Below are positions 28,701 to 52,550 of a DNA stretch of 54,180 nt, piece by piece. Every line of letters begins with the position of its first letter. The stretch's first letter is position 1. This stretch comes from Leptospirales bacterium. GTDB lineage: Bacteria; Spirochaetota; Leptospiria; Leptospirales; Leptonemataceae. The translations under genes and the position numbers were made by a program. The notes beneath the pieces are model-generated. The model did not search any database. It was given only the letters and a program-made list of their open reading frames with translations, and was not told where the DNA came from. The stretch lies in assembly GCA_019694655.1 (NCBI GenBank), contig JAIBBN010000017.1, positions 1-54,180 on the forward strand, read 5' to 3'.

Positions 28701-29384
28701 TCAGCGATTCGCGGCCTTAATCCCCGTCTGGCAGCAATCGAGTAATGGACACTGCTGGCAAAGCGGTCGACGCGCCCGGCACACCAGGGCGCAGAAATCC
28801 AGCATCGCCAGATTCAGCTGAAAGGGGTCCTTTGTGTGTACAAACTGATTGGCCAGCTCCAGCACGCGGCGATCGCGCCGGCTCTCGGCATGCAGCGGCA
28901 GGCCATGCAGACGCGCCATCAGTCGCGCCACATTAACGTCCACCGCCGCCTCGCGGGCGCCGAAGAGTCGACTGCGCAACATTGCGCTGCAGTAGGCGCC
29001 CACGCCGGGGATCGCTTCCAGATCGTCGCCGATGGCCGGCGCACGCCGGGCAAAGCTGTCGCGAAGATAGGCAAAGGTCTGGCGCAACTGCGTCTGGCGC
29101 CAGCGCAGGCCAAGCGGGCGCAAGATCTCATCCAGCTCTTCAGGCGCAGCGGCGGCCGCGGCGGCCGGATCACGATAGCGTTCGGTGAAACGCAGATACA
29201 CCGCCTGCACCTGATCGGCGCGCGTGCGTCGCAGCATCATCTCAGCGCTGAGCAGATGGAACCAGCTGTGCGTCTGGCGCCAGGGATAGTTGCGGCCGTG
29301 TCTTGCAAACCAGGCGCGCAGGCGTCGGCGCAGCAGCGGAAAAGCGGCGGGACGCGGGGAGCGGGTTCTGTGAGCGGGGCGCAT
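28701..29384 (-). CDS. small HhH-GPD mismatch DNA glycosylase (MutY/TDG type)
   Basis: A 227-residue glycosylase without MutY's C-terminal 8-oxoG-sensing domain. It has AEMMLRRTRADQV in the catalytic Glu position, the helix-hairpin-helix AIPGVGAYCSAML, and VDVNVARL carrying the catalytic Asp. The cysteine pattern C202-X6-C209-X2-C212-X5-C218 fits an Fe-S cluster. The whole resembles Mig/thermophilic G:T mismatch (thymine) glycosylases, which repair deaminated 5-methylcytosine. Such enzymes usually accompany m5C methyltransferases, but only a type I (m6A) system is seen here. The last gene of the core stretch before the accessory part begins. Confidence 0.85.
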   Translation of the reverse strand: MRPAHRTRSPRPAAFPLLRRRLRAWFARHGRNYPWRQTHSWFHLLSAEMMLRRTRADQVQAVYLRFTERYRDPAAAAAAAPEELDEILRPLGLRWRQTQLRQTFAYLRDSFARRAPAIGDDLEAIPGVGAYCSAMLRSRLFGAREAAVDVNVARLMARLHGLPLHAESRRDRRVLELANQFVHTKDPFQLNLAMLDFCALVCRARRPLCQQCPLLDCCQTGIKAANR

Positions 29385-29567
29385 GGCGGATTACAAAGCT
29401 ATCCCCGGCGATTGGATCGGACGGCGGGCGGCCGGGCGAATCTCGCTGTGTCGCCGCCTGCACCGCTGGAGCGCGATGGTCCGCAGGATTGGTTCTCGAC
29501 CCGGGGCCGCAGAATCGTCGCCATTCCTCCGTCCTTTGCCATTAGACGAGCCTTGCCAGTCCGCAAT
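29385..29567. other. spacer before the first accessory unit
   Basis: This 183-bp stretch lies between the glycosylase start and the GIY-YIG gene end. It has no plausible gene. A short segment at 29539-29549 (CCATTAGACGA) matches, in reverse, the D arm of tRNA-Gln/Glu genes, but the anticodon and T arms cannot be completed. The low-GC accessory genes begin directly after. Confidence 0.4.
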
Positions 29568-30203
29568 CTAAGAATCCTGGACAGGGTCTCCGTTGCTAAA
29601 GTAAGCTCGCTTTCCAATGGCATGGTTGAGAAAATCGGCAAGCTGCCGATCTCGGTCCCCGTAAACGTTCTCAATTGTAAATCCGTCCGAAACCGCTGGC
29701 ACTTTGCTGTCGCCAAGATAACCCGGTTTCATAGAGGGATACCTGGCCCGCATGATTCTATGAAGTGCAGCTTCCACCGCGACAAGTTTGTCGGAGGGCG
29801 CTTGCGCAAAGCAAAAGTGACTGCTACGCACAAGTTCACGCGCGATTTTCTTCCTTTCCGCTTCCAGGAAATCATTGCGTTCAAGCGCCATAGTTTCGCT
29901 CGAAACGTACTCTTGGGGTCCATCAAGGAATGCTACCGGATCACGTGGCAGGTATAGGAGTGCTCCGGGGTTAAGGTATGTTTTGAGGAGATGATCCTGA
30001 AACCGTCCTCCGAGGTCAACTGCCCGCCCAATGTACCACACCTTGTAACGGCTCTTTCTCACCGAATATCCGGAAAATGCATAAACACCACTGCCCAACC
30101 GCGGTAGCCGGTATTCCCCGCCATCCGCTGATTCAAGAAGACGCGCCTGGGCCTCCATGGGCCAGGACATCCAGTGAAGTGATATCGTTATTTGAGAAAT
30201 CAT
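29568..30203 (-). CDS. GIY-YIG nuclease-like protein
   Basis: A 211-residue protein begun at MISQITISLHW, with AGGAGA nine bases upstream. The GIY-YIG core is recognisable as SGVYAFSGYSVRKSRYK...VWYIGRAVDLGGRFQDH: GVY for GIY, YIG, and a following Arg. A downstream VEAAL holds the expected metal-binding Glu. Such nucleases occur in mobile elements, phages and defence. The C-terminal half matches nothing I know. It follows the 412-residue protein by 27 bp and is probably its partner. Base composition is lower in GC than the core genes, so transfer is likely. Confidence 0.65.
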   Translation of the reverse strand: MISQITISLHWMSWPMEAQARLLESADGGEYRLPRLGSGVYAFSGYSVRKSRYKVWYIGRAVDLGGRFQDHLLKTYLNPGALLYLPRDPVAFLDGPQEYVSSETMALERNDFLEAERKKIARELVRSSHFCFAQAPSDKLVAVEAALHRIMRARYPSMKPGYLGDSKVPAVSDGFTIENVYGDRDRQLADFLNHAIGKRAYFSNGDPVQDS

Positions 30204-30230
30204 GGTATTCTCCTGGAGATATTGCAAAAA

Positions 30231-31469
30231 CTAAATAGGTAGTAACTGCTGGCCCTGTTCCAGTTCCGCCAGCCGAAGGATCTTATTCGAATTTGGCGCG
30301 CCTCTATTAGGCAGGGGAAGCGACTGCTGCCCCTGCTTCAGTTCCGCCAGTCGAAGGATTTTGGCTGGCGTCGATGTCCTTGTGAGCGGTACCAATCGAC
30401 CTGGATCCGACGCAAGGGCGGACATCAATCGATCGCGCATGGTCGCGCTACATTCCGCAACCAGCAATCGGAACCGCTCAGGCAGCAGCTCAAAATCGAT
30501 TGGATCAAATCGCTCCGGCGTCATATACTCGCGAATCCATCGCCAGAGTTCGTCGCAATGAAGGCAGACCACGTAGCCCGGCGCCAGAGGGAAACACAGA
30601 AGGCGGCGACCGCGCCGCATCTTCAGGCGTCTGCGGATGTTGAAAATTCTGTAACCAGTCTTTTGCATTACAAAGATAGCAATAAGGAAAAGCCTTTTGA
30701 AACCCAGCCCGTATTGTTCCGTCATGCGTCGAAGGTGAGGATGGCCGAAAACACCAAGAATGTCAAGCGATGTGGAAAAGCTGCAACTGTCAGCCGCTTC
30801 CAGTACTGAAAGGAGAATCAAATCGTTGAGATTGTGAACAAGTTTCTTTGCCACAAAGCCATATTTGCCCGTCACAGCTTTGTCCAATTTGGCCTGAAAA
30901 CTACTTTGCTGTCGCGCGTACCACCGCGCAAGGGGTCCGCCCAAACGAGGAATAACTCCGGACGCGTCCTCTTGCCGGTGGTTGAGAAGAAGTTTACTCG
31001 GAATATGGAGTTGATATTTCAAGTTTACTGATTGTTCGACAATCACAAAGAGAGGCGCGACGACTGTGTAACGCACGAATTCAAGCGGATCGATTGCTGT
31101 GCACCATGAGGCGCCTTTGCTCCAAAGGTTCGCCGCCCTAAATGAAAGCGGCTGAACAATAAAGTACTCTTGTCGACAGCCGACAAAACGAGTTTCCATC
31201 GCCAATTGAAACGCTTTGAGAAGCTGCGTGGGCCGTGAATACTGGCTGAAATTTCTTGCTTTTGGCGGTAACCTACCGAGATGACGCGACCAGAGATAAG
31301 CGAGCAAATGTATTCGCCGCATTTCAAGAGCCGTTATCGTCCGGCGGGTGCGAAGATGCAAATACCAGCGAGCAATGGGCCCGATCCGTCGCCAGTGATT
31401 GTCCTTTCGCTGCGATTGGGGGTCCGCCGCGATAATTGACTCTGTCTCCAATTCATTTGTGATTTTCAT
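30231..31469 (-). CDS. unrecognised 412-residue protein with phage-like segment
   Basis: Basic, with many aromatic residues and no membrane segments. The region around residues 110-165 (LWSKGASWCTAIDPLEF, then APLFVIVEQSVNLKYQLHI) recalls a segment found in many uncharacterised phage proteins, where SKGTxWCTA is followed by a Tyr, an LYxII strand and KYQLHF. This comparison is from memory and unproven. The C-terminus holds two copies of KILRLAEL.QGQQ, 26 residues apart. Translation starts at ATG 31469, with GGAGG inside a perfect hairpin. First gene of a two-gene unit with the GIY-YIG protein. Confidence 0.5.
   Translation of the reverse strand: MKITNELETESIIAADPQSQRKDNHWRRIGPIARWYLHLRTRRTITALEMRRIHLLAYLWSRHLGRLPPKARNFSQYSRPTQLLKAFQLAMETRFVGCRQEYFIVQPLSFRAANLWSKGASWCTAIDPLEFVRYTVVAPLFVIVEQSVNLKYQLHIPSKLLLNHRQEDASGVIPRLGGPLARWYARQQSSFQAKLDKAVTGKYGFVAKKLVHNLNDLILLSVLEAADSCSFSTSLDILGVFGHPHLRRMTEQYGLGFKRLFLIAIFVMQKTGYRIFNIRRRLKMRRGRRLLCFPLAPGYVVCLHCDELWRWIREYMTPERFDPIDFELLPERFRLLVAECSATMRDRLMSALASDPGRLVPLTRTSTPAKILRLAELKQGQQSLPLPNRGAPNSNKILRLAELEQGQQLLPI
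30240..30360 (-). repeat. 78-bp tandem repeat (about 1.5 copies) at the 3' end of the 412-residue gene
   Basis: The plus strand reads CTGTTCCAGTTCCGCCAG at 30255-30272 and CTGCTTCAGTTCCGCCAG at 30333-30350, followed in both by (C/T)CGAAGGAT. The 78-bp (26-codon) period keeps the reading frame. A related TTCCAGGTCCGCCAG occurs in the hairpin at 32277-32309. This suggests a short dispersed element captured into the coding end. Confidence 0.6.
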
Positions 31470-31472
31470 TTG

Positions 31473-31492
31473 ATTCCTCCGGTCGGAGGAAT
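31473..31492 (-). promoter_or_regulatory. perfect hairpin covering the ribosome binding site of the 412-residue gene
   Basis: ATTCCTCCGGTCGGAGGAAT is a perfect inverted repeat (nine-base arms, two-base centre) four bases from the ATG at 31469. On the minus-strand mRNA the right arm contains GGAGG, the Shine-Dalgarno sequence. If folded, the hairpin would hide the ribosome binding site, so translation may be controlled by temperature, a protein or an RNA. Confidence 0.55.
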
Positions 31493-31888
31493 CGGGGAGA
31501 CTTGAGGCAGAAGTCCGCTCTGGTGGCGCTTTTCTAGATTTTTTTCCTTTTCTGAGACGCTATCTCAGGTCGATTCTTTCACTATCTGCGTCCCGCGGCA
31601 GCGGTCCCAGCTACAGCCAATCGGAATTCTGGCTGGTCAGCCGGAGCGGACAAAGTACGAACCCAGGGCCGAATGATTCAGGAATGTAGAGGCCCTTCGC
31701 GGCGAACCGGTGGAAGATTGAGTTGCGAAGCGAAAGCCAGCTCGACTACTTTGAGCCGGGTTCCGCGAGCGAGCTTCCGCCGCGGCCCGGACCTGCTCCT
31801 GGCGTTTACGATCTTTAACTATTTTCGTTTTCAGAACTTCAAGGGTTGGCAGGAGCGCTTGCCTTTCGCATTGCTCGGGTTTTCCGAA
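31493..31888. other. divergent intergenic region
   Basis: About 400 bp between the 412-residue gene and the plus-strand gene at 31889. It holds a small inverted repeat TGAGA-N5-TCTCA at 31553-31567 and A/T-rich tracts next to it, which could be part of a divergent promoter. A reading frame continuing the downstream gene to 31673 is open but reads like Arg-rich noise in its first 45 residues. I see no other gene. Confidence 0.35.
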
Positions 31889-32260
31889 ATGGTTCGCAGC
31901 AAGCGAATGTTTTGCGATCTATGCTGGAATGATACGCGTATTACCGTTGAGCAGCGCGGCAATGACGAGACAAAACAAGTAATCGAGGCCGCGCTCGGGC
32001 TTTTTTGCGACCGAGCACAGAAGGCGTTCTATGTCCAGGAGTTGAGTTCGGATAGCAAGCGTTCAAGGTCAGGGTGGAGATTGAGTTCATCTCTGACAGC
32101 GGAAGGGAGCGCCAATCCCGAGCTAATGCGCTATATGAAGGATCTTTTCGAGGGCGAATTGGCTACGATTGCTTCAAGAACAGGCGCCATCAATAGAGTG
32201 CAAGTCGACCTGATCTCTGAAGAATTTGAAGCGAAGATTCATATCGGTCGCGGCGATTGA
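31889..32260 (+). CDS. hypothetical protein
   Basis: A 123-residue frame begun at the ATG of MVRSKRMFCDLCW. It contains one CxxC pair (CDLC), FCDRAQKAFYVQEL, and a C-terminal VDLISEEFEAKIHIG strand-like part. There is no good Shine-Dalgarno site, and the frame stays open to 31673, so the real start is uncertain. Codon use resembles the neighbouring low-GC accessory genes. Function unknown; may be a remnant. Confidence 0.35.
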   Translation: MVRSKRMFCDLCWNDTRITVEQRGNDETKQVIEAALGLFCDRAQKAFYVQELSSDSKRSRSGWRLSSSLTAEGSANPELMRYMKDLFEGELATIASRTGAINRVQVDLISEEFEAKIHIGRGD

Positions 32261-34572: not shown

Positions 34573-37500
34573 TCAGCCGGCGAGTTCCGCTGCAATCAAT
34601 TCGGCCTGCTTGAGCACCGTCTCCGTCGCCAGAAGTTGCATGTCTGGCGGGTAGCCGTACTCGCGCAGCGCGCGCTTCACCATTACCTTCAGCCTGGATC
34701 GCACGCTTTCCTTGATCGTCCAGTCGATCGACACATTTTCCTTTACCCGCTTGTACAACTCCACGGCAAGCTCGCGGAGCTTGTCCTTCTCCATTAACTC
34801 ACGGGCGCTCGCATTGTCCGCTACGGCACAGTAGAAGGCGTATTCGATTTGCGTGAGGCCCATGGCCGAAGGCTCTTCGTCCTTCTTCTTGATTTCCTTG
34901 CTGAGCTGAATCAGCTCCTCGATGACCTCGGCAGCGGTGATTACTTTGGCGTGGTAGCGCTTGAGGGAATTCTCCAGCATTTCCAGCAGTGTCTTGCTTT
35001 CGACGAGGTTTCTCCTCGCCCGTCCCCTTATCTCATCGCTGAGAAGCTTGCGGAGCACCTCAAGGGCGAGGTTCTTGTGCTCCATCCCGGCGACTTCTTG
35101 TAGAAACTCGTCCGACAGAATGGAGATCTCCGGCTTCTGAAGTCCCGCAGCGTCGAAGACATCGATGACCTTCTCACCGACGAGCGCCTGGTCGATGACC
35201 TGCCGAATGGCCGTCTCCATCTCGACGTTGCTCATGCCCGGCCCGGGGGCGTCGAACTTGACCAGCCTCGCCTTTACGGCCTGAAAGAAGGAGATCTCCT
35301 CCTTTGCATCCATCGCCTGATCGTGAGGGAGGGCAATGGCAAAGGCCTTCGAGAGCGCCGTGACTTCGTCGATGAATCGTTTCTTGCCGTCTTCCAGACC
35401 AAGGACATGATTCTCGGCGGCAAGGATCATCGCCAGTTTGCCGGGCGTGTCCGCATCGAAGTAGTTCTCGTAGGGAAACTCGTGGAACATCTGGCTGACC
35501 ACTTCCAGCTTCTCCAGCATGAGGTTGACGGCTTCCTCCTGCGTGGCCGCCGGGTCGCCCTTACCGCCGCTCTCGGAGTAGAATGAGAGAGCGTCTTTCA
35601 GATCAGAGGCAATGCCGAGGTAGTCCACCACCAGACCGCCTTCCTTGTCCCGGTATACCCGGTTCACCCTGGCGATGGCCTGCATCAGGTTGTGACCCTT
35701 GATCGGCTTATCGATGTAGAGCGTGTGCATTGAGGGTGAATCGAAGCCGGTCAGCCACATATCCCGCACGATGGCCAGCTTCAGCTCGTCTTCGGGGTCT
35801 TTCATCCGGTCCGCCAGCACACGCCGCTGGTCCTTGGTCGTGTGGTGTTTGGCTATCTCGGGTCCATCGGATGAGGCGGCAGTCATGACCACCTTCACGA
35901 CGCCCTTCTTGATGTCGTCGCTGTGCCACCGCGGCCGGAGCCTGGTGATCTCCCGGTAGAGGTCGGCTGCAATGCGCCTCGACATGGCCACGACCAGAGC
36001 CTTGCCATCCATGCCCATCAGGCGCTGCTCAAAATGCGCCACGATGTCCTGCGCCACGAGTTCGATGCGCTCTTCACTGCCGACCAGCGCTTCAAGCTTG
36101 GTCCATTTGGCCTTCGCCTTCTGCGAGGCGTCCATCTCTTCGGTCCCGATCTCTTTGTCGAGATCAGAGACGAGCTGTTTGCCCTCATCCGATAGCTTGA
36201 TCTTCGCAAGGCGGCTCTCGTAGTAGATGCGGACCGTGGCGCCGTCTTCCACCGCCTGGGAAATATCATATATGTCCACATAGTTCCCGAAGACGGCCGG
36301 AGTGTTGATATCGGTGTTCTCTATCGGCGTGCCGGTAAAACCGAGGTAGGTGGCGTTTGGCAGCGCCTCCCGCATGTATTTGGCAAAGCCGTAGACGATC
36401 TTCTTTCCGATGACGTTCCCGCCGGCGTCTTTGTCGTCAATGGTGCGGGCCTGAAATCCGTACTGGGAGCGGTGGGCCTCGTCACAGATCAGGATGATGT
36501 TCTCTCTTGCTGACAGCTCATCGTAGACATTGCCCTCGTCTGGCTGGAACTTCTGGATGGTTGTGAAGACCACGCCGCCTGAAGCCACTTTGAGGAGTTC
36601 TTTGAGGTGACCCCGGTTGTCGGCCTGCACCGGCTCCTGGCGCAGGAGCTGCTTCGAAGCGGCGAACGTATCGAAGAGCTGGTCATCGAGGTCGTTGCGG
36701 TCGGTGATGACGAGGATGGTCGGGTTCTTCATCGCCTGCACGATCTTCCCGGCATAGAAGACCATCGTCAGCGACTTCCCGGAGCCCTGCGTATGCCACA
36801 CCACGCCACCTTTGCGGTCCTTGTACTTTCTGGGATTGCCGCTCTGTATCCCGTGCAGCGCAAGGCTGTGCTGCTCAATGTCGTCGGTGTTGAGCAGCCT
36901 GCTTTCGACCTTCTTGAAACCGGCGGCCCTCAGAGTCGATTCGACCGCACGATTGACGGCATAGTACTGGTGGTAGGCGGCCAGCTTCTTCTCCGTACTC
37001 ACCTGAACAAGCCCTGTCTCCCTGTACTCCCGCTTCGACTTCTCGAAGACCACGAAGTGCCGGATCAGGTCGAGCAGCGTCTCGGGGTTCAGCATCCCGA
37101 CAATGAGGGTTTCCAACTGGGTGGAGAGCTGCGATGCCTCCTTCCGGCCGTCCTTGGATTTCCACACCATGAAGCGACTGAAGCCGGAGGAGATGGTCCC
37201 CGCCCGAGCCTCCAATCCATCGGAAATGACCGTGAAGCCATTGTACGTGAACAGCGTCGGAATCTGGGCCTTGTAGGTCTGGAGCTGCTGGAAGGCCGAG
37301 GTGATCGTGGCGTTCGCATCCACGGCGCTTTTCAGTTCGAACACAACCAGAGGTATCCCGTTCACGAAGAGAATGACATCGGGTCGCTTGTTGATGTTGT
37401 TCTCCACTACCGTGAACTGATTGATGACGTGGAAGGTGTTGTTCTTGGGGTTGTGGAAATCCACAAGCATTGCCAGTTCGCCCCGCTCCTGCCCCCGGTC

Positions 37501-37815
37501 CTGCCTCGTTACCGTAACGCCTTCGGTCAGCAGGCGATGGAACTTCTCGTTGCCCGCAATGAGGTCCGGGGAGGCAATCCGCTCCACCTGCTTCATTGCA
37601 TCCCGGCAGGTGTCCGCATCGAGCTTGGGATTGATCCGCTGCACAGCTCGGGCAAGCACTTCGGTCAGCAGTACGTCAGAGAAGCTGGCCCGTTTGAAGG
37701 GCGCATCCGCCTCGGAATCGGGTGCAATGTCGGGGCCGTGGATGAATGCGTAGCCCTGCTTTGCAAGCAGGCCGATGACCCACTCTTCGATGGAGGCTTC
37801 GGTAAGAGAGGTCAT
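34573..37815 (-). CDS. hsdR: type I restriction enzyme R subunit
   Basis: A 1080-residue motor and nuclease subunit begun at MTSLTEASIEEWVIG (one base after the upstream stop). The N-terminal nuclease motif reads RPDVILFVNG...VVFELKSA (about residues 145-160). Helicase motifs follow: HTQGSGKS (Walker A, about 342), LICDEAHRSQYG (DEAD-like, about 443), and LGFTGTP. Motif VI-like ARVNRVYRDKEGG is present. It translocates and cleaves DNA lacking methylation at the site recognised by HsdS, with HsdM. It is last in the operon and appears intact. Confidence 0.96.
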   Translation of the reverse strand: MTSLTEASIEEWVIGLLAKQGYAFIHGPDIAPDSEADAPFKRASFSDVLLTEVLARAVQRINPKLDADTCRDAMKQVERIASPDLIAGNEKFHRLLTEGVTVTRQDRGQERGELAMLVDFHNPKNNTFHVINQFTVVENNINKRPDVILFVNGIPLVVFELKSAVDANATITSAFQQLQTYKAQIPTLFTYNGFTVISDGLEARAGTISSGFSRFMVWKSKDGRKEASQLSTQLETLIVGMLNPETLLDLIRHFVVFEKSKREYRETGLVQVSTEKKLAAYHQYYAVNRAVESTLRAAGFKKVESRLLNTDDIEQHSLALHGIQSGNPRKYKDRKGGVVWHTQGSGKSLTMVFYAGKIVQAMKNPTILVITDRNDLDDQLFDTFAASKQLLRQEPVQADNRGHLKELLKVASGGVVFTTIQKFQPDEGNVYDELSARENIILICDEAHRSQYGFQARTIDDKDAGGNVIGKKIVYGFAKYMREALPNATYLGFTGTPIENTDINTPAVFGNYVDIYDISQAVEDGATVRIYYESRLAKIKLSDEGKQLVSDLDKEIGTEEMDASQKAKAKWTKLEALVGSEERIELVAQDIVAHFEQRLMGMDGKALVVAMSRRIAADLYREITRLRPRWHSDDIKKGVVKVVMTAASSDGPEIAKHHTTKDQRRVLADRMKDPEDELKLAIVRDMWLTGFDSPSMHTLYIDKPIKGHNLMQAIARVNRVYRDKEGGLVVDYLGIASDLKDALSFYSESGGKGDPAATQEEAVNLMLEKLEVVSQMFHEFPYENYFDADTPGKLAMILAAENHVLGLEDGKKRFIDEVTALSKAFAIALPHDQAMDAKEEISFFQAVKARLVKFDAPGPGMSNVEMETAIRQVIDQALVGEKVIDVFDAAGLQKPEISILSDEFLQEVAGMEHKNLALEVLRKLLSDEIRGRARRNLVESKTLLEMLENSLKRYHAKVITAAEVIEELIQLSKEIKKKDEEPSAMGLTQIEYAFYCAVADNASARELMEKDKLRELAVELYKRVKENVSIDWTIKESVRSRLKVMVKRALREYGYPPDMQLLATETVLKQAELIAAELAG

Positions 37816-37816
37816 G

Positions 37817-38167
37817 TTACTCGTCCTCACGCTCCAGCGGGGCCTCTTCCACATCAATGACCATGCTATGGTACACCGCATGGAACCAGTCCTGGAACAT
37901 GGGAAAGCTGACCTCTTTCGGCCAGAGGGACTCCTCCGGTGTCCACTCCTCGACCATCCGCATGAAGAAGAACTCGTAGTTCTCTTGAATCCACCGGTCG
38001 AAGTGCTCGGGTGAGTCCAGTTCCTCGATCAAGAAGACCGTACCCGATTCATGTCGGGTCAGATCGACAGGCCCGTAGTTCTCGTTCTCCGCAAAGATGC
38101 GATTGGCCCAGTCATACAGCGCCTGCTTCGGGTACAGGATGAGAACGTCCCGATTGACGAGGCTCAT
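37817..38167 (-). CDS. small conserved protein of the type I RM operon
   Basis: A 116-residue acidic protein: DVLILYPKQALYDWANRIF, then a run of aromatic residues (EFFFMRMVEEW) and FQDWFHAVYHSMVIDV. It starts inside the hsdS2 stop (ATGA), and its own stop lies one base before hsdR, so it is made with the RM enzymes. Similar small proteins occur as stand-alone conserved hypotheticals, and I know no function. It may modulate restriction. Confidence 0.55.
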   Translation of the reverse strand: MSLVNRDVLILYPKQALYDWANRIFAENENYGPVDLTRHESGTVFLIEELDSPEHFDRWIQENYEFFFMRMVEEWTPEESLWPKEVSFPMFQDWFHAVYHSMVIDVEEAPLEREDE

Positions 38168-39336
38168 ACGGCGACTCGGACCTCGCCGGACATGAGTTTG
38201 GGGAGCAGGGTGTCACGAAGCTGAACCAGCGTCCGAATCTGTCGGACGCTGGAAGTCATCTTCTCCAAGATGGGCCGCACAGTTTCATTGAACTCTGCGA
38301 GCCTTTGGTAGTCCGGCTTGGGGACTTCGTAGCTTGCGAGCATTTCCCAACTGGTCCGGGGCATCCGAGTGCCGCCAGACCCGGCATCTGAGAAGTCCAC
38401 TACCTCTTTGCTGAAAAACCAAAGAAGGCAGAACAGGGCGAAGTGCTCTGCTTTGGCTCGAATAACGAGAACGTCAGTAGAACAAACGCCCGCAATAGGT
38501 GCGACAACAACCTTGTGAAAGTAGGGACGAAGCTTCCCAAAAAGGATGTCCCCTTTCCGAAAAACGGACTTGTTGCTTCCGAGTCCCTCCGGCGTACCCC
38601 ATTCATCCAAGTAGAGCCTCTTCCGAGGGATATGTTCAAGGCCCACATAGTGCTCGAAGGCATCGAGGTTTTCGGCTCTCACCCCATCCCGAATATTCTC
38701 TGCGAACTCGCCCAGGGGAACCACCGAGTCATCCGCCTCCTCCACAAACCACTGCCGAAAGAGCGTCTCGGCCATGGCTTCCAGGGTCTTGTTCTGCCGG
38801 TGCAGCAGGTCGATCTTGTCGTCGAGGCTGGAGAGAACTGAGGCGATGGCTTTTTGTTCGGGGAGGGGCGGGAGGAGGATGGGGATCTCAGACAGGTCTC
38901 GAATCGGAAGCTGTGGTTGGGCACTCCCCGAAGCAAAGTCGGCAAAAGCCCTCTTCAATGAAACGAACAGATAGTAGTTGAATTCAGGCGAAAGCTGGGC
39001 GGGTTCAGGGCGGAGTATGACCATTCCAGAGTTTATCCGCATTCGATCAAATGGAACGGCACCGTTGAAGAAAGCGACATTCCCGACAGTGCCTCTTGTC
39101 GTGAGAACGGTGTCTGTGCGCTCCAACCTTCCCTTCCGAAGTAGATTGTCTCTTGCAGCCGAAATGAATTGTGTTTCAGCGAAGTCGAAACCAGTGGACG
39201 TCACGTTCCTTGCACTCAAGAATAGACAGTGGCCCGAAGCGGTAAATTCATCCTGCTTCGGATAGTGCCTGCCTCTGTCTCCATCAATGATCTGGAGCGG
39301 TGCTGCACCAAGCTTGGTTTCCATCCACTCTTTCAT
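38164..39336 (-). CDS. hsdS: type I restriction specificity subunit, second copy
   Basis: A 390-residue specificity subunit with two target recognition domains split by the conserved central helix PLPEQKAIASVLSSLDDKID then RQNKTLEAMAETLFRQWFV. It ends TLLPKLMSGEVRV, the second conserved helix. The start overlaps the stop of hsdS1 (ATGA). Its recognition domains differ from those of hsdS1, so the operon may offer two methylation/cleavage specificities with one hsdM and one hsdR. The shared 150-bp central segment (38731-38880) invites recombination. Confidence 0.93.
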   Translation of the reverse strand: MKEWMETKLGAAPLQIIDGDRGRHYPKQDEFTASGHCLFLSARNVTSTGFDFAETQFISAARDNLLRKGRLERTDTVLTTRGTVGNVAFFNGAVPFDRMRINSGMVILRPEPAQLSPEFNYYLFVSLKRAFADFASGSAQPQLPIRDLSEIPILLPPLPEQKAIASVLSSLDDKIDLLHRQNKTLEAMAETLFRQWFVEEADDSVVPLGEFAENIRDGVRAENLDAFEHYVGLEHIPRKRLYLDEWGTPEGLGSNKSVFRKGDILFGKLRPYFHKVVVAPIAGVCSTDVLVIRAKAEHFALFCLLWFFSKEVVDFSDAGSGGTRMPRTSWEMLASYEVPKPDYQRLAEFNETVRPILEKMTSSVRQIRTLVQLRDTLLPKLMSGEVRVAV

Positions 39337-40033
39337 CTTTCCGTAGGTTTCTCCAGGTTGGCCGTGGCGCTGACCCGGACTTCACCGGACATGAGCTTTG
39401 GAAGCAGCGTGTCACGCAGTCCTTCGAGGGTCTCGATCTGGTGCGTATTGGCATCAACCTTGGTGAACAGGGTTCTGAAGTACTCCAGCTTGGGCTCAAG
39501 CGCATCTGCGGGGACGGGAACGGGTTGTTCCTCGATCATGCCTTTCGTGATGAAGTTGATCACCGAGCCCCGGTGTCCGCCTGTGATCTCATCAAGGTAG
39601 TACTTCATGTACACATACAGAAAGTCGTACCACATGACCTCGTAAGGGATCAGCACATAGGTGCGTTGATAGACTTCGAACTTCCCAGAATAGCGTTTGA
39701 TGTTGAAATCCCCATTGCCAGCCAAGAGGATGGCGCTGCCCTCGAAACTGTAGTCCGGGGCACGTAAGGTCGTCTGCGAGCATGTGAAGAATGGGTACGG
39801 GCCATCCTCGGTCGAGAAGTTCGCATTCTGCTTGCCTGTCCTCACGGAGAAGAAGTCTCCGAGCCTCTTTTGCTCCCATCCCTCATCCGCCTCCTCCACA
39901 AACCACTGGCGAAAGAGGGTCTCGGCCATGGATTCCAGGGTCTTGTTCTGGCGGTGCAGCAGGTCGATCTTGTCGTCGAGGCTGGAGAGGACGGAGGCGA
40001 TGGATTTTTGTTCGGGGAGGGGTGGGAGGAGGA
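38731..40033. repeat. direct 150-bp repeat shared by the two hsdS genes
   Basis: Positions 38731-38880 and 39884-40033 are near-identical (about nine or ten mismatches by eye) and encode the central conserved helix. The 3' ends also share an element for TLLPKLMSGEVRV. They are direct, not inverted, so recombination would delete one gene and fuse the halves. Confidence 0.75.
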
Positions 40034-40397
40034 CTTCCTCCCTGTGGACATCATTGCGATTCACGCCGGGAACGGCGCTCTTGTCATTGAACTTCTCCCA
40101 TTCTACCTGCTTCAAGAAGTAGTATATGAACACCTCGTCATTTCCGTTGAACTCGATCACATACAGAGTAGTATTCAACGGCCAGTAAGGCCCACGGGAC
40201 AGAAAGACATCGCCTATGGTACCATATCGTCCAGTGATGACACCGGGACCTGGCAGGATTGGCTCATCGTGGTAGCCAGATATGCCGGATGAAGAAAAAA
40301 TGGGAATGTTGCCGGGCTTCCGATCCTTAGCAGGCAGGTCGTGGCCCCGCTTCAGCGTTACCACCTCCCCCAGCGGCATCTCTCGCCAATCCTTCAC
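39333..40397 (-). CDS. hsdS: type I restriction specificity subunit, first copy
   Basis: A 354-residue protein with a GTG start that overlaps the TGA of the displaced hsdM tail (GTGA). The first recognition domain opens WREMPLGEVVTLKRGHDLP, followed by the conserved central helix (LPEQKSIASVLSSLDDKID), a second domain, and RDTLLPKLMSGEVRV. The overlap with an hsdM 3' end shows the original order was hsdM directly followed by this gene. It is followed by hsdS2 through an ATGA junction. Confidence 0.93.
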   Translation of the reverse strand: MKDWREMPLGEVVTLKRGHDLPAKDRKPGNIPIFSSSGISGYHDEPILPGPGVITGRYGTIGDVFLSRGPYWPLNTTLYVIEFNGNDEVFIYYFLKQVEWEKFNDKSAVPGVNRNDVHREEVLLPPLPEQKSIASVLSSLDDKIDLLHRQNKTLESMAETLFRQWFVEEADEGWEQKRLGDFFSVRTGKQNANFSTEDGPYPFFTCSQTTLRAPDYSFEGSAILLAGNGDFNIKRYSGKFEVYQRTYVLIPYEVMWYDFLYVYMKYYLDEITGGHRGSVINFITKGMIEEQPVPVPADALEPKLEYFRTLFTKVDANTHQIETLEGLRDTLLPKLMSGEVRVSATANLEKPTER

Positions 40398-40766
40398 CGA
40401 GGTGCCACCTTCCCTAGATTCTCCAGAATCGCCCGATTGAGCTTTGCCTCTTCCGCCAACTGCCCTTCAAACGCCGCCTTCAGGCCCGGCAAACCGCTCC
40501 GCCAAATCAAAGTCGTCCTCCTCCTCTGGCAGCCCAACATACCTCCCCGGCGTCAGCACAAAGTCCAGCGCTTGGACTCGGTCGAGCTTCGCTACACAGC
40601 AGAACCCTGGCTCGTCTTTGTACTTCTTCGATGATGCCCGCCAATTGTGATACGCCTCGGCGATCTTCTGGATATCCTCTTCGGCGAACTGTTTCGTGCG
40701 CCGCTTGATGAGACGACCGAGATTGCGGGCATCGATGAACATGTCGGCCTCAGCAGCAGGGCTCAT
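40394..40766 (-). pseudogene. displaced 3' end of hsdM (about 115 codons, frameshifted)
   Basis: Translates as FIDARNLGRLIKRRTKQFAE... and on through a region matching the last about 115 residues of HsdM (SSKKYKDEPGFCCVAKLDRV; TPGRYVGLPEEEDDFDLAER). A one-base insertion near 40478 breaks the frame, but the HsdM-like sequence continues to the stop at 40394 (LNRAILENLGKVAPR). That stop overlaps the hsdS1 GTG, so this is the original 3' end of hsdM beside hsdS. Translation could start at ATG 40766, inside the HEPN stop, giving an about 99-residue product. Confidence 0.85.
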
Positions 40767-41110
40767 CGTCTCTCACCCTCCAGAACCTGCAGCAAGGACT
40801 CTACCTGCGCTTTCAGCTCCGGAAGGTCGCGCGTCACAGCCTCCCAGACGATCTCCGCATCGATCTGAAAGTAGCCGTGGACAAGCACATTCCGCATTCC
40901 AATGATCCGGGGCCATTCGATTTCAGGCGCCCGCGAGCGCACTTCTATGGGCAGGGCACGTGCGGCTTCGCCGATGATTTGCAGGTGGCGCACAAACCAC
41001 GATTGTAGAAGCTCGTCGCGCTCGAAATCGGCTTTTCCGCGCACAAGATGACGCTCAATCGCAGCAATCGCCTCCAGAATATCGCGCAGGCGCTCGGCCG
41101 GGTCCCTCAC
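40763..41110 (-). CDS. HEPN toxin (HepT-like)
   Basis: A 115-residue helical protein with the RX4HXY motif at residues 73-80 (RNVLVHGY), the ribonuclease site of HepT toxins; the Tyr is the known AMPylation target in this family. It starts at a GTG within the MntA stop (GTGA), showing coupling. Its own stop overlaps the start of the displaced hsdM tail. HepT cleaves tRNA, and MntA neutralises it by adding AMP to the Tyr. The three key residues are intact, so it is probably active. Confidence 0.9.
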   Translation of the reverse strand: MRDPAERLRDILEAIAAIERHLVRGKADFERDELLQSWFVRHLQIIGEAARALPIEVRSRAPEIEWPRIIGMRNVLVHGYFQIDAEIVWEAVTRDLPELKAQVESLLQVLEGERR

Positions 41111-41397
41111 AGCGGCACGGCCTCCCGCTGGACGCGCTCCCGGAACCTGGGCTTCAGTCCGCGCTCGGTCACGACGTCTACGGATCGGCCGAGGAGTGCC
41201 TCCAATTCGTACTGGATTCCGCCGAGATCAAAGAGGCTGCGTCCGGGCTCCATCTCCACGAGGAAATCGATGTCGCTTTGCTCATCGGCGTCCGCGCGGG
41301 CCTGGGAACCGAATACTCGGACCCGGTGCGCCCCGTATCTGGCACAAATCTCCAGAATCTGGTGTCTGTGCACTCGGATTGTTTCTCGTAGTGTCAT
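41107..41397 (-). CDS. MNT-type nucleotidyltransferase antitoxin (MntA-like)
   Basis: A 96-residue minimal nucleotidyltransferase with the GSX10DXD motif (GSQARADADEQSDIDFLVE). It begins at ATG 41397 (MTLRETIRVH), about 40 bases after the promoter-like site at 41445-41474. It should AMPylate the HEPN partner encoded immediately after. The catalytic residues are intact. Lies between two copies of the hsdM tail. Confidence 0.9.
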   Translation of the reverse strand: MTLRETIRVHRHQILEICARYGAHRVRVFGSQARADADEQSDIDFLVEMEPGRSLFDLGGIQYELEALLGRSVDVVTERGLKPRFRERVQREAVPL

Positions 41398-41444
41398 GTT
41401 CAAGGGCAGCTTCCCGGGCCGCCCGCCTACAACACAGATTCCCC

Positions 41445-41474
41445 ATTTTGCCTTGAAAGGCTATCCTAAAACAA
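41445..41474 (-). promoter_or_regulatory. promoter-like site of the second MNT-HEPN module
   Basis: On the minus strand TTGTTT (41469-41474) is followed after 18 bases by CAAAAT (41445-41450). The spacer contains the same TAGGATAGCC as the copy at 42638-42667. A transcription start is expected about 40 bases before the MntA ATG. Confidence 0.5.
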
Positions 41475-41513
41475 GGACCGATCGAGCGCAGCCAGGCCAG
41501 TGCCTGGGAGTGT

Positions 41514-41744
41514 TCAGCGCGATCCGCCGACCTGGACCTTCGCCAGATTCTGCAGAATCGCCTGATTCAGCTGAGCCTCCTCCTCCATTTGGCCTTCCAG
41601 CTCCGTCTTCAGCCCGGCAAACCGCTCGGCAAAATCAAAGTCGTCATCCTCTTCCGGCAGCCCCACATACCGCCCCGGTGTCAGCACATAGTCCAACTCC
41701 TGCACGCGCTCTAGCTTGGCCACGCAACAGAAGCCCGGCTCGTC
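41514..41744 (-). pseudogene. second displaced copy of the hsdM 3' end
   Basis: The frame reads DEPGFCCVAKLERVQELDYV through LTPGRYVGLPEEDDDFDFAE to a stop at 41514, matching the last 76 or so residues of the intact HsdM and closer to it than the other tail (LNQAILQNLAKV against LNQAILENLGKV). It begins abruptly about 35 bases after the HEPN stop at 41780, without the preceding 40 residues found in the other tail. It lies directly before the promoter-like spacer of the next module. Confidence 0.85.
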
Positions 41745-41779
41745 AACTATGGTCCATCCTGACATTCAAAAAGCGCCGA

Positions 41780-42136
41780 TCATATCCTGTCCGTCCATCC
41801 ATCGCCCAGCAGCTTTTCCACCACAGCGAGAAGCGCGGGCAGGTGATCCTGTGCGACGCCCCAAACAGTTGCATCGTCGATGGCGTCATAGCCGTGAATG
41901 ATACGATTTCGAAAAGCCACGATGCGAGTGACTTCGGGAATCTGATCGGCCACGTCCGGCGCATGCTTTGCCAATCGCGCAAGCGCTTCGCCGATGATTT
42001 CAAACTCCCGTTCGGTGGCGCGACGCAGCAGCCGATCGCTCTGGTAGTCAGCGAAGTTGCGTTGGGCCTGCCAGGTGCGGATGCTCCGTCCGGCCTCTAC
42101 CACGTCGAACAGGAGCTTCCTCGAGTGGTTATCCAT
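41780..42136 (-). CDS. HEPN toxin (HepT-like), second pair
   Basis: A 118-residue protein begun at MDNHSRKLLFDVVEAGRS, overlapping the MntA stop by eight bases. The RX4HXY motif reads RNRIIHGY, so the active-site Arg, His and Tyr are all present. It is clearly related in fold to the other HEPN protein, but the sequence differs strongly, so it was acquired independently rather than duplicated. It is followed by an hsdM tail copy. Confidence 0.88.
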   Translation of the reverse strand: MDNHSRKLLFDVVEAGRSIRTWQAQRNFADYQSDRLLRRATEREFEIIGEALARLAKHAPDVADQIPEVTRIVAFRNRIIHGYDAIDDATVWGVAQDHLPALLAVVEKLLGDGWTDRI

Positions 42137-42434
42137 ACACCAGGACGCGCGTATCCTCAACTTCGCGGCGCAAGTAGGGGTTGCGCATGGCCTGATCTGT
42201 CAACAGGTCCACCCGCCTGCCGAAGAGGCGCTCCAAATCATCAGCGAGTCCCAAATAGCGATCCGCGTATTCACCGGTGGGACTGCGGTCCGACATTTCC
42301 ACCAGGAAATCCAGGTCGCTGCTGGCGGTAAGCTCCTCCCGCACTGCTGATCCAAAGACGTACAGACGATTGACGCCGTAGCGTCGGCACAGCCCCGCCA
42401 GGGCTTCACGATTCTGTTCGATTGGACTTACCAC
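42129..42434 (-). CDS. MNT-type nucleotidyltransferase antitoxin (MntA-like), second pair
   Basis: A 101-residue protein started at the GTG of MVSPIEQNREALAGL, with GGTGAGG upstream. The GSX10DXD motif is GSAVREELTASSDLDFLVE, followed by DDLERLFGRRVDLLTD, a typical MNT tail. The upstream frame contains a decayed fragment of another MNT gene. Overlaps the HEPN gene by eight bases. Confidence 0.88.
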   Translation of the reverse strand: MVSPIEQNREALAGLCRRYGVNRLYVFGSAVREELTASSDLDFLVEMSDRSPTGEYADRYLGLADDLERLFGRRVDLLTDQAMRNPYLRREVEDTRVLVYG

Positions 42435-42479
42435 CTCACCCACGGGACCGCCGGATTGCCCGGTCAGCAAGAGAAAAAC

Positions 42480-42585
42480 GCGCGGGTAACGGAGCCAAAT
42501 GCGCGCACCCGGTGCCCCCCCGTACTTGGCGCAAATCTCCAAGATTGCGGGCTTGTTGCAATCGGACTGTTTCTTCTCCCGTCAT
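42480..42585 (-). pseudogene. 5' fragment of an MNT gene (frameshifted)
   Basis: From ATG 42585 one can follow LQQARNLGDL in one frame, ILEICAKYGG in the next, and HRVRAFGSVTRAFF in the third. The last two resemble the ILEICARYGAHRVRVFGSQARA start of the MntA protein at 41397. The fragment ends where the second, intact MNT-HEPN pair begins. It has the same promoter-like spacer upstream, so this module once carried the same MntA and lost it to the present pair. Confidence 0.65.
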
Positions 42586-42637
42586 GGTCGATTACGGGCG
42601 GCGTGCTCCGGCTCCAAACTACAATACAGCAATCCCT

Positions 42638-42667
42638 ATTTTACTTTAGAGGGCTATCCTAAAACAA
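42638..42667 (-). promoter_or_regulatory. promoter-like site of the first MNT-HEPN module
   Basis: On the minus strand TTGTTT (42662-42667) is followed after 18 bases by TAAAAT (42638-42643). The spacer TAGGATAGCC is shared with the copy at 41445-41474. It lies just past the intact hsdM stop, so it may drive the toxin-antitoxin pair independently of hsdM. Confidence 0.5.
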
Positions 42668-42705
42668 GGGCCGCGCGGCGGACGGGTCGCGGCGTGCAAA
42701 AGGCT

Positions 42706-44268
42706 TCAACCTTCCTTCCCGACCCGCACCTTTCCCAGATTCTCCAGAATCGCCTGATTAAGCACAGCCTCTTCCTTGAGCTGCCCTTCAAACTCCGCCT
42801 TCAGGCTGGCAAAACGCTCCGCAAAATCGAAATCGTCGTCCTCCTCGGGCAGCCCCACATAACGCCCTGGCGTCAGCACATAGTCCAACTCCTGCACTCG
42901 CTCCAGCTTCGCTACGCAGCAGAACCCCGGCTCGTCTTTGTATTTCTTGGACGAGTTCCGCCAGTTGTGATACGCCTCGGCGATTTTCTGGATGTCTTCA
43001 TCCGCAAACTGCTTGGTGCGCCGGTTGATGAGATGGCCCAGATTGCGGGCATCGATGAACAGAATCTCCTCCGACCTCTTGGACTTAGAATCGTTGGCCT
43101 TCCCACGGTCGAGGAACCACAGACAGGCCGGTATCTGCGTGTTGAGAAAGAGTTTGGCCGGGAGGTTGACGATGCAATCCACCAGCCGGGCTTCTACCAG
43201 CGCCTTGCGAATGTCGCCCTCGCCCGACGTCTTGGAGGTCAATGAGCCTTTCGCCAGCACGAATCCGGCGACCCCGGTCGGGGCCAGATGGAACAGGAAG
43301 TGCTGGATCCATGCGTAATTGGCATTGCCCTCCGGAGGCACACCGTGCTTCCAGCGGCCATCCTTGCGGAGCTGGGCGCCTGACCAGTCCGAATCGTTGA
43401 ACGGAGGATTGGCAATGACATAGTCAGCCTTCAGGTCCTTGTGGGCATCGTTCAAGAAAGAGCCCTCGTTGTTCCACCTCACCTGCGAGCTATCGATACC
43501 CCGAATCGCCAGGTTCATTTTGGCCAGTCGCCACGTGGTATGATTGCTCTCCTGTCCGTAGATGGAGATGTCGTTCACCTTGCCCTGATGGCTCTCGACG
43601 AACTTCTCCGACTGGACGAACATCCCGCCCGAGCCGCAACATGGATCGAAGACACGGCCCTTGTGCGGTTCGAGCATGGCCGTCAGAAGTTCGACTACTG
43701 ACCTCGGGGTATAGAACTGTCCGCCCTTCTTGCCCTCTGCCAGAGCAAACTCGCCAAGAAAGTATTCGAAGACATGCCCGAGTATGTCCGCGCTGCGGGC
43801 TCTGGCATCGCGCATGGCGATCTTGCCGATCTCGTCGATCAGTCCGCCAAGGTTGGCAGGATCGAGATTGCCACGAGCGTAAACTTTAGGTAACACATCT
43901 TTTAGAGAAGGATTGTCCTTCTCAATCAAGTCCATGGCCGCATCGACCGTGGTCCCGATGTTCGGTTTCTTTGCTTCGGCTACAAGAAACGACCAGCGAG
44001 CTTTCTCCGGGACGAAGAATACGTTCTCGGCTTTGTATTCATCTTTGTCCTCCGGATCGGCGCCGGAGTAATTGCCTTTGCCGGACTTCAGGCGATCGTG
44101 CAGATCTTCGAATGCGTCCGAAATATAGCGCAAAAAGATCAGACCGAGGACCACATGTTTGTACTCTGCCGCGTCAATGTTCTTGCGCAGCTTATCGGCT
44201 GTCTTCCAGAGCTGCTTTTCGATGGGTTCCGCGGTAACGACGGAGTCTTTCTTCTTACTTCTGGCCAT
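42706..44268 (-). CDS. hsdM: type I restriction-modification methyltransferase subunit
   Basis: A 520-residue N6-adenine methyltransferase subunit that with HsdS forms the modification enzyme. The SAM-binding motif is FDPCCGSGGMFVQS (about residue 210), and the catalytic motif is NPPFND (about 286). The start MARSKKKDSVVTAE lies close to GGTT and AAGG bases. It is intact. Its 3' end exists in two further copies downstream, between the toxin-antitoxin modules and hsdS, which is the striking feature of this locus. It must now be separated from hsdS by about 2.3 kb. Confidence 0.96.
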   Translation of the reverse strand: MARSKKKDSVVTAEPIEKQLWKTADKLRKNIDAAEYKHVVLGLIFLRYISDAFEDLHDRLKSGKGNYSGADPEDKDEYKAENVFFVPEKARWSFLVAEAKKPNIGTTVDAAMDLIEKDNPSLKDVLPKVYARGNLDPANLGGLIDEIGKIAMRDARARSADILGHVFEYFLGEFALAEGKKGGQFYTPRSVVELLTAMLEPHKGRVFDPCCGSGGMFVQSEKFVESHQGKVNDISIYGQESNHTTWRLAKMNLAIRGIDSSQVRWNNEGSFLNDAHKDLKADYVIANPPFNDSDWSGAQLRKDGRWKHGVPPEGNANYAWIQHFLFHLAPTGVAGFVLAKGSLTSKTSGEGDIRKALVEARLVDCIVNLPAKLFLNTQIPACLWFLDRGKANDSKSKRSEEILFIDARNLGHLINRRTKQFADEDIQKIAEAYHNWRNSSKKYKDEPGFCCVAKLERVQELDYVLTPGRYVGLPEEDDDFDFAERFASLKAEFEGQLKEEAVLNQAILENLGKVRVGKEG

Positions 44269-44770: not shown

Positions 44771-45905
44771 ATGTTCCCTGGCGTTGAAAATCTGCGCGTG
44801 TTCGTCCGCCCTGGAAGAACGGATATGCGCAAGTCCATCAATGAAGCAGAAGACGGCGACGGCGAAGAGCAGCCTTCCGAAAAATCCGTGGTGTCTTCCT
44901 TTCTGCGTCGGAAGCGCGGCCGGCGGCCAATACCGGAGAGTATTCCGCGCGAGGAAATCATTCTCGACTTGCCGGATTCCGAAAAAACCTGCGCCTGTGG
45001 ACAGACCTTGAGTTACATCGGCGACGATGTATCCGAAGAGCTGGAACTCATTCCGCAGAAAATCATGGTCCATCGCTACATCCAGCGAAAATACGCCTGC
45101 AAGAGCTGTGAAGGGCTGGGCGATGAAAGTCGGCCTGCGGTGCGCACGGCCTTGCGTCATCGCCTTTTGCCTGGCACGATCGCCGGCGAGGGCCTTCTGG
45201 CTTATATACTTACCTCAAAATTCTGTGATGCGCTGCCCTTCTATCGCCAGGAAAAGATGTTCGATCGCATCGGCATCGACCTGACGCGCGGCACAATGTG
45301 CAGCTGGGCGATCAGAGTTGCTGAGGAGCTTGCGATTGTAAGCGAAATTCTATGGGATGAAATTCGCTCTGGTTCCAGCCTGGGCGCAGATGAAACGACT
45401 CTGCAGGTAATTTGCGAAGCGGGTCGTAAAGCAGACCAGAAATCATATATGTGGGTGTTGCGCGGCGGCCGGGCTGATCGTCCTGTGATACTGTTCGAAT
45501 ACAGATCTTCGCGCCGCCTGCTGGGCGCATGTACGCCGGCGCTTTGCCATCCGGAACAATGGGCAGGGCAATTGCCTACGCCTGGAAACTATGGCCGCGA
45601 CTCACCGTTTACGTTGAGCATGGCGAACTGGAGATCGACAACAATCTGACCGAAAACGCAATCCGCCCTTTTGTCGTCGGTCGCAAGAACTGGCTGTTTT
45701 CCTGCGTTCCTGCAGGCGCGAGGGCCAGCGCACTCCTCTACTCAATCATTGAGACGGCTAAAGCAAACGGTCACGAACCATTTTCCTACCTGAGGCATCT
45801 GTTCTTGCACTTTCCAGACAATCGAAACAACATCGAGGCTGTCCGGGATCTGATGCCCTGCAGGCTCTCGCCGGCTGCCGTGCACGCGGCGTTCAAGTCG
45901 CGGTG
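44771..45905 (+). pseudogene. IS66 TnpB-TnpC fusion, frameshifted
   Basis: MFPGVENLRVFVRPGRTDMR is TnpB. It changes at about residue 25 into TnpC: RRKRGRRPIPESIPREEI, CACGQTLSYIGDDVSEELEL, RHRLLPGTIAGEGLLAY, FCDALPFYRQEKMFDRIG, LGADETTLQVI (first Asp/DDE part). At about 45525 the frame and about 300 residues of core are lost, then the end is read in another frame: LWPRLTVYVEHGELEIDNN, IRPFVVGRKNWLFS, LLYSIIETAKANGHEPFSYL. Not functional. Confidence 0.85.
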
Positions 45906-52531: not shown

Positions 52532-52550
52532 GGTGTGAACGCGGAATGGC

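Follow-up and report, generated by a model that had tools for sequence, protein, structure and literature searches.

Profile comparison identifies a 412-aa protein of a Leptospirales bacterium as a cellular relative of a family of large-phage proteins, the WC-domain family. Its gene (gene A) lies directly upstream of a second gene (gene B) whose product, judged by its signature residues, is a GIY-YIG-like protein and putative nuclease. The two genes lie in a 54,180-nt stretch of DNA (GCA_019694655.1, contig JAIBBN010000017.1, positions 1 to 54,180), which we refer to as the window.

30231..31469, minus strand: gene A, 412 aa, ATG start; a bacterial protein akin to the 'WC-domain' family of jumbo phages (related to phrog_17056)
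29568..30203, minus strand: gene B, 211 aa; GIY-YIG-type endonuclease-like protein

As an earlier reading made from the sequence alone had described, gene B follows gene A after 27 bp (the gene A stop ends at 30231 and the gene B ATG is at 30203). This ATG is preceded by a ribosome-binding-site-like sequence and yields 211 aa; an alternative TTG at 30227 would yield 219 aa. Both reading frames are open and both genes are intact.

The WC domain of gene A and its viral relatives

Single-protein searches with gene A and gene B returned no significant match in Pfam, PHROGs, NCBIfam or PADLOC, and nothing significant by tblastn in phages, plasmids, viral contigs and genome contigs or among solved structures. 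Gene A had no direct PHROG match (hmmscan, E <= 5) and no PADLOC match, and neither protein significantly matched a known defence family. Weak gene A matches in four relatives (G004, G008, G018 and G026; E 6.6e-4 to 0.0074) contained internal stops and were dropped as chance; another gene A search of the phylum tallied 2 of 392 genomes, the second being the chance match in G004. The sequence-only reading was thus correct that the larger protein is matchless beyond a SKG.WCTA...KYQLH segment, and that segment proved to be a real homology signal to the viral WC family.

30954..31199, minus strand: WC domain of gene A (aa 91-172), P..S..A....GasWCTA...F..Y...PLfvI....KYQLH, from alignments A1-A3

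We scanned viral contigs with a motif derived from gene A, WCTA...KYQ[LF]H, and recovered 109 stretches with 113 motif places. Nearly all of these share the consensus PkTeASC.lG.GTkWCTA....F..Y..gpLYI.....KYQFHFe, and the few that were chance or broken (e.g. L057) were left out. Against a profile of 69 distinct viral domains, from which gene A was excluded, gene A scored 46.2 bits (E = 2e-11 at Z = 1e5), while plain shuffles of gene A scored at most 5.1 bits (537 of 2,000 reported). As the motif had been the selector, we also implanted both motifs into 2,000 gene A shuffles, the best of which reached 25.1 bits compared to 46.2 for the real protein. The suggestion of a phage-flavoured partner therefore stands, since gene A has true viral relatives by this measure. 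When one motif was masked gene A scored 20.6 or 26.5 bits, and when both were masked it scored 1.2 bits, demonstrating that the homology depends on the motif region. Together, the implant and masking controls attribute some 20 bits to non-motif residues, a contribution that needs the motifs as anchors of the alignment.

A second scan, performed with alignment A3 and with KYQLH[FIL][EPQ][ST] as the only selector, produced 37 viral loci confirmed by tblastn with the gene A domain (best segment: 42% identity); at least five of these loci or contigs were already in the first scan and one (L092) is a member of A3. By blastp, full-length gene A aligned with viral locus L183 across aa 59-166 (E = 2.6e-6, dbsize 1e9). 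Both results lean less heavily on the profile and agree with it, on loci that in part belonged to the first collection. With the 90-aa domain alone, tblastn pointed to four phage records (E 0.6-5), including CcrBL9 and SCTP-2, which were confirmed later: when viral members L091 and L183 were used as tblastn queries against 50,697 phage records (E <= 1e-5), 14 records matched, comprising 11 PA5oct-like Pseudomonas phages, CcrBL9 twice and SCTP-2, all larger than 280 kb. Plasmids contained no tblastn match to L183.

Among PHROGs, phrog_17056, a family with no assigned function, was matched by 25 of the 38 members of A1. Gene A has the domain P.T..ASC..G.GT.WCTA...F..Y..GPLY.I....KYQFH in common with phrog_17056, related PHROGs and the PA5oct protein EST35_0205; a helical N-terminal part in front of the domain may also be common to them (weak colinearity), and the C-terminal half is member-specific. 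Unlike the phrog_17056 proteins, gene A is located on a bacterial chromosome, and its identity to the other 66 rows of alignment A2 is 16-33%. The C-termini of WC proteins vary (LRR_5 in 4 and DUF4116 in 3 of the 38 A1 members); gene A is without the LRR or DUF4116 repeats of some viral members and has two KILRLAEL repeats in its own C-terminus. Our searches found no relative of its C-terminal half.

30238..30362, minus strand: a 47-nt repeat, imperfectly duplicated (83%) at a spacing of 78 nt, encoding KILRLAEL[K/E]QGQQ at gene A aa 370 and 396

The helical N-terminal part (DPT...gkY..W...ED...L..F...DI..Y) scored 4.5 bits with its own profile, a score attained by 2 of 2,000 shuffles, consistent with weak colinearity; with an earlier profile it scored -0.7 bits and several shuffles scored higher. 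The AF2 model of gene A, built from A1, has a pLDDT of 79-93 per ten-residue block across aa 11-200, predicts confident helices in the N-terminal part and is poor beyond aa 200. A Foldseek search of BFVD with this model returned 17 viral proteins at E <= 1e-3, the best from Caulobacter phage CcrBL9 and some from two Marseillevirus genomes; no PDB entry was found at E <= 0.001. In the VIA rows for gene A (Z <= 5.4) helical-repeat chains were at the top and a few were GNAT-like (Z <= 4.1). PPR rows were dropped as a repeat artefact, as no stretch matches on its own.

The same BFVD search placed PcfJ-like phage proteins at E 0.07-0.10, and PcfJ (PF14284) was weakly matched by 2 of the 38 A1 members (best E 0.0025); gene A itself had no PcfJ match (Pfam, E <= 5). 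A relationship between the WC and PcfJ domains is only suggested by these data. Our literature search returned nothing on the A-B pair, phrog_17056, a WCTA phage motif or PcfJ as a phage protein domain, and PMC5512222 mentions neither PcfJ nor WCTA.

The PA5oct homologue EST35_0205 scored 110.7 bits against the WC profile and is annotated 'structural protein, ESI-MS/MS'; the virion role of the WC family comes from this one phage record. The preceding PA5oct gene, EST35_0204, appears by eye to be large terminase-like. For MIJ3, a phage related to PA5oct, the accessible part of the published description identifies only four structural proteins (tail, minor tail, tail fibre and capsid), and the WC protein is not named there (PMC6892783). 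We also considered a Cys-His catalytic dyad in the WC domain and rejected it, as its invariance in A1 and A2 was forced by the pattern used to collect their members. Of the 19 rows that the pattern had not picked, 13 have W-C (several of the other six are visibly frame fragments), and the His of KYQ.H is kept in 5 of the 11 such rows that show this place. Given these frequencies, we do not propose a Cys-His active site. From these comparisons, gene A is a cellular relative, and most likely a descendant, of a family of jumbo-phage proteins, at least one of which is virion-associated; its members keep a conserved N-terminal half that contains the W-C-T-A domain.

The GIY-YIG core of gene B

29991..30089, minus strand: GIY-YIG core of gene B (aa 39-71), GVY-x15-YIG-x-A-x-DL-x-x-RF-x-x-H

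Gene B reads GVY...WYIGRAVDLGGRFQDH, with GVY at aa 39 and YIG at aa 57 followed by DL, R67 and H71, and candidate catalytic Glu residues occur after the core at E116 and E144. This arrangement (GVY...YIG.A.DL..RF..H, then Glu) is that of the GIY-YIG enzymes (PF01541; I-TevI-like, UvrC and T5orf172). The description of gene B as GIY-YIG nuclease-like is thus upheld by its signature residues, though its score against the Pfam GIY-YIG model (13.1 bits, E 0.12) is below the gathering cut-off of 22.6. The profile searches that the sequence-only reading had called for led from gene A to the viral WC family and for gene B gave only this sub-threshold match. In a six-frame GIY-YIG search of its own genome, gene B ranked third (14.6 bits, E 0.136), behind two above-cut-off matches.

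A DNA pattern for YIG[R/S]A.DL..RF..H identified six stretches in viral contigs, all of them phage-homing-like GIY-YIG ORFs. We aligned gene B with five of these, the sixth being identical in sequence to one of the five. Gene B and the five phage ORFs keep G39, Y41, Y57, I58, G59, A61, D63, R67, F68, H71, L85 and E116, of which the places from Y57 to H71 were forced by the pattern in the phage rows. The spacing from GVY to YIG is about five residues longer in gene B than in the aligned phage ORFs. The AF2 model of gene B built on these six rows has low confidence (pLDDT 41.6), yet it retains the beta-beta-alpha-beta-alpha order. Its two best Foldseek PDB rows are both I-TevI (E 0.083 and 0.094), a weak match with some circularity, as the alignment behind the model included phage GIY-YIG rows.

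The likeness of gene B to the phage homing-like ORFs is confined to the core (best blastp E 2.3 at dbsize 1e8). NUMOD-like tails are seen by eye in the phage ORFs and not in gene B, for which Pfam reports none, and we saw neither homing-type repeats nor an obvious DNA-binding module in gene B. UvrC-type GIY-YIG enzymes have an Asn at a place where gene B has a Lys (YPSMK). In PADLOC, gene B had two weak matches to PDC-S14 (E 0.025 and 0.046), each spanning 35-36 residues of the GIY-YIG core.

Chromosomal setting and occurrence of the pair

The gene order moxR - (gene at 20805) - epimerase - fliG - mutY is kept in relative G011. In the window, tldE and tldD separate fliG from mutY; we did not find these two genes at that place in G011. 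The tested window genes to the right of mutY had no match in the 4.7 kb and 15.1 kb beyond mutY in G011 (E 1e-8), and none was found in 20-kb stretches of six other relatives. Synteny with G011 thus stops at mutY, and the non-syntenic region opens with genes B and A. This region also contains a type I restriction-modification (R-M) system ~3 kb beyond gene A, DoxX, AraC-type and MaoC-like genes, an IS66 remnant and an LRR protein.

28701..29384, minus strand: MutY-like glycosylase gene, the last gene of the block syntenic with relative G011
34573..44268, minus strand: type I restriction-modification genes hsdR, two hsdS and hsdM, in the same non-syntenic region as A-B

The base composition of the pair is lower in GC than that of its neighbours, as previously noted (gene A = 0.518; gene B = 0.520; nine genes measured to the left = 0.552-0.661). 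GC3 is also low (gene A = 0.545; gene B = 0.514) relative to the 0.70-0.79 of eight of the nine left-hand genes, the exception being a lipoprotein gene at 25069 (0.616). The earlier description of a two-gene unit is supported in that the pair is operon-like, has a foreign composition and is located at the start of a non-syntenic region with type I R-M genes and an IS66 remnant. We also considered terminal inverted repeats of a transposon at 29523-29534 and 31481-31492 and dismissed them: six pairs of such quality are present in 2.3 kb, no target duplication is seen by eye, and the right arm is accounted for by the hairpin at the gene A start described below.

A search of 392 genomes of the phylum with the WC profile identified a single copy in one genome, that of the bacterium analysed here, and gene B was likewise found only in this genome. 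The sequence-only reading had staked its proposal beforehand on the two genes co-occurring elsewhere, and on this point it failed within the reach of our searches, neither gene being found in the other 391 phylum genomes sampled. In a second phylum the WC profile matched 1 of 329 genomes, namely the centre genome, itself chosen for its match. In a third it matched 0 of 316, a result without a positive control because the pattern match of that centre (L118) was chance. A pattern scan of genome contigs returned 23 stretches; among these, the WC profile matched 11 ORFs, distributed over 10 loci.

Given the low GC and GC3, the absence from the other 391 phylum genomes and the end of synteny at mutY, the best reading of A-B is a horizontally acquired two-gene operon. 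These features bear on an alternative in which two unrelated accessory genes became neighbours by chance, gene B being a repair- or restriction-type GIY-YIG protein and gene A an independent acquisition. The mixed content of the region (type I R-M, IS66 remnant, LRR protein) and our finding no conserved A-B pairing would fit such a history. The 27-bp spacing, common strand, near-identical GC and similar GC3 argue against it, as does the absence of both genes from every other phylum genome sampled, and we consider it unlikely.

We found no second A-B pair in the other 391 phylum genomes, in the viral WC loci or, by blastp, in 259 loci. Across the roughly 13,000 ORFs of these 259 loci, the only blastp match to gene B below E 0.03 was gene B itself, followed by four pattern-selected GIY-YIG ORFs (E 0.035-0.11) and one unrelated-looking row (L014, E 0.31). 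A strict GIY-YIG motif expression matched 1 of 5,219 locus ORFs, again gene B itself, and none of 1,306 ORFs in a second set. When we used a GIY-YIG profile made from alignment A4, which includes gene B and so gives it a score by construction, a GIY-YIG ORF (E <= 1e-3) was found in 9 of 195 WC-profile loci (7 distinct), 0.3-4.8 kb from the WC gene and homing-like by eye. Four window loci had been removed from these 195, many of which are redundant, and some of the nine positive loci lie in the sets scanned with the strict motif. Two further matches (L077 and L101, E 0.0087) were rejected as nucleases because each represents the N-terminal portion of a broken WC gene; those in L067 (E 0.011) and L183 (E 0.04) look real but weak. 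In the nearest viral case (L201) the GIY-YIG ORF lies 316 nt after the WC ORF, though a 148-aa open frame overlaps this gap and direct neighbourhood is therefore not established.

Homing nucleases are common in large phages, so this proximity does not count as evidence of a system; it does suggest how genes A and B could have met. One alternative follows this route throughout and views A-B as a passenger fragment, in which a homing-type GIY-YIG nuclease and a neighbouring phage 'cargo' gene were transferred together from a jumbo phage to this chromosome and serve no selected host function. Large phages do carry WC-domain paralogues (one to eight matches per virus record in ten of ten records, all chosen for having one; two matches may fall in one ORF), and GIY-YIG ORFs occur near the WC gene in the nine viral loci just described. 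The three phyla of cellular genomes also gave no further finds, bar the one centre genome chosen for its match, and 'HEG-islands', in which nuclease genes move cargo between phages, are described in the part of the literature available to us (PMC10448857). Against a passenger, both genes are intact, gene B shows by eye none of the NUMOD-like tails of the phage ORFs and resembles them in the core only, and a scan of the neighbours of A-B revealed no further phage gene. On balance we regard this account as possible, if rather doubtful.

The hairpin at the gene A start and possible functions of the pair

31472..31493, minus strand: perfect 9-bp hairpin over the gene A ribosome-binding site, from folding and a genome search

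At the start of gene A, GATTCCTCC-GACC-GGAGGAATC forms a perfect 9-bp stem (-13.8 kcal/mol folded alone) that contains the ribosome-binding site GGAGGA. In context, the gene A start region has a z of -2.8, with 1 of 200 shuffles folding equally well, and the hairpin sequence occurs once in the genome. The gene B start region is ordinary (z = -0.6; 56 of 200 shuffles fold equally well). An unusual hairpin-controlled start had been claimed for both genes; the hairpin is real at gene A only, so that the original observation holds for layout, composition and motif and not for a common hairpin-controlled start. A 9-bp stem with a loop of 3-9 nt is not itself rare in the window (8 exact matches at five distinct places), and the striking feature is its position over the Shine-Dalgarno sequence.

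This asymmetry would fit a toxin-antitoxin-like pair in which gene B is a DNA-damaging toxin, gene A its controller, and the hairpin and the A-B order tune their ratio. The gene order and a strong hairpin at the gene A ribosome-binding site only are in its favour. However, usual antitoxins are much smaller than the gene A product, and the best-annotated relative of gene A, in PA5oct, is a virion protein, making this the most improbable of the alternatives that we considered.

Our best explanation of the locus as a whole, which we put forward tentatively and at somewhat less than an even chance, is that A-B is an acquired, phage-descended nuclease cassette with phage interference as its likeliest mechanism. 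The part of this explanation that concerns identity and origin is, taken alone, very probable. That A and B interfere with phages is itself doubtful, and we view interference and passenger status as nearly equally likely. For the interference model we infer joint action of A and B, DNA cleavage by B, phage as the target and regulation by the hairpin. In such a model gene A would go back to a protein of the phage particle or of its assembly, and would recognise, or interfere with, related large phages on infection; gene B would cleave DNA, and the hairpin over the ribosome-binding site would keep gene A translation low. The earlier designation as a 'defence or mobile unit' is tenable as an interpretation of gene content and chromosomal place, and is not supported by a recurring pair.

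GIY-YIG chemistry is used elsewhere in conflicts between phages, their parasites and hosts. The available portions of published reports place GIY-YIG and T5orf172 nucleases in phage-parasite conflict and anti-phage systems (PMC8263062, PMC10952713, PMC9519451); in them, the defence systems PD-T4-3 and PD-lambda-1 contain GIY-YIG domains (PMC10952713), and Odn of ICP1 is a chimera of a T5orf172 (GIY-YIG superfamily) nuclease and a domain resembling its parasite's counterpart (PMC8263062). The captured part of Odn, with which we compare gene A by description, is a DNA-binding domain fused to the nuclease, whereas gene A is a separate protein and a relative of a virion component. In a more specific version of the interference model, which we consider improbable, gene A would be a sensor or decoy that engages a giant-phage particle or assembly step and brings nuclease B to the phage DNA. 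If this were true, A-B would be a restriction-like defence that draws its specificity from a captured virion protein, and not from DNA sequence or modification.

If A-B does nothing for its host, it would be a record of gene flow from a jumbo phage to a chromosome, perhaps by a nuclease-plus-cargo route. If A-B interferes with phages, it would be a case of a virion protein recruited for recognition. Among the paralogous families of giant phages that are still unexplained is the WC-domain family, with one PA5oct member annotated as a virion protein, and a single-copy cellular member beside a nuclease provides a small, testable handle on what this domain binds.

An open reading frame beside gene A and other low-GC genes

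31673-32260, + strand: ORF of 195 aa, divergent from the neighbouring gene A
48477-49127: protein of 216 aa, start MQDRYAGDIGDFTKF, GC 0.499 (low)

The ORF adjoining gene A, which encodes the WC domain, has a GC of 0.524, low like that of gene A, and searches of Pfam, PADLOC, NCBIfam and plasmids returned no match to it. Gene A and the GIY-YIG-like gene B may have it as a third member of their unit, or it may be no gene at all. The 216-aa protein had no match in Pfam, NCBIfam or PADLOC. We also observed a leucine-rich-repeat protein of low GC (0.453) adjoining one that, on visual inspection, resembles SMI1/KNR4 proteins but had no match in a Pfam search (52781-53812 and 51980-52660).

WC-domain genes in large phages

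Some large phages carry WC-domain genes in tandem (loci L054, L069 and L141, and virus record G397 at L035), with three copies at L054. Across whole records, each chosen for having a match, WC-domain matches number seven in the large phage SCTP-2 and eight in G397. On two viral contigs (L077 and L101), a stop codon before the WC domain splits the gene.

A transposase remnant and paired specificity genes

44771-45649: partial IS66-type transposase
38164-40397: two neighbouring hsdS genes

The Pfam DDE_Tnp_IS66 match to the transposase reaches only position 115 of 284. The hsdS genes of the type I restriction-modification system, with hsdM ~2.3 kb away, have in common a near-identical segment, PPLPEQK.IASVLSSLDDKIDLLHRQNKTLE.MAETLFRQWFVEEAD, through which the specificity genes might be able to recombine.
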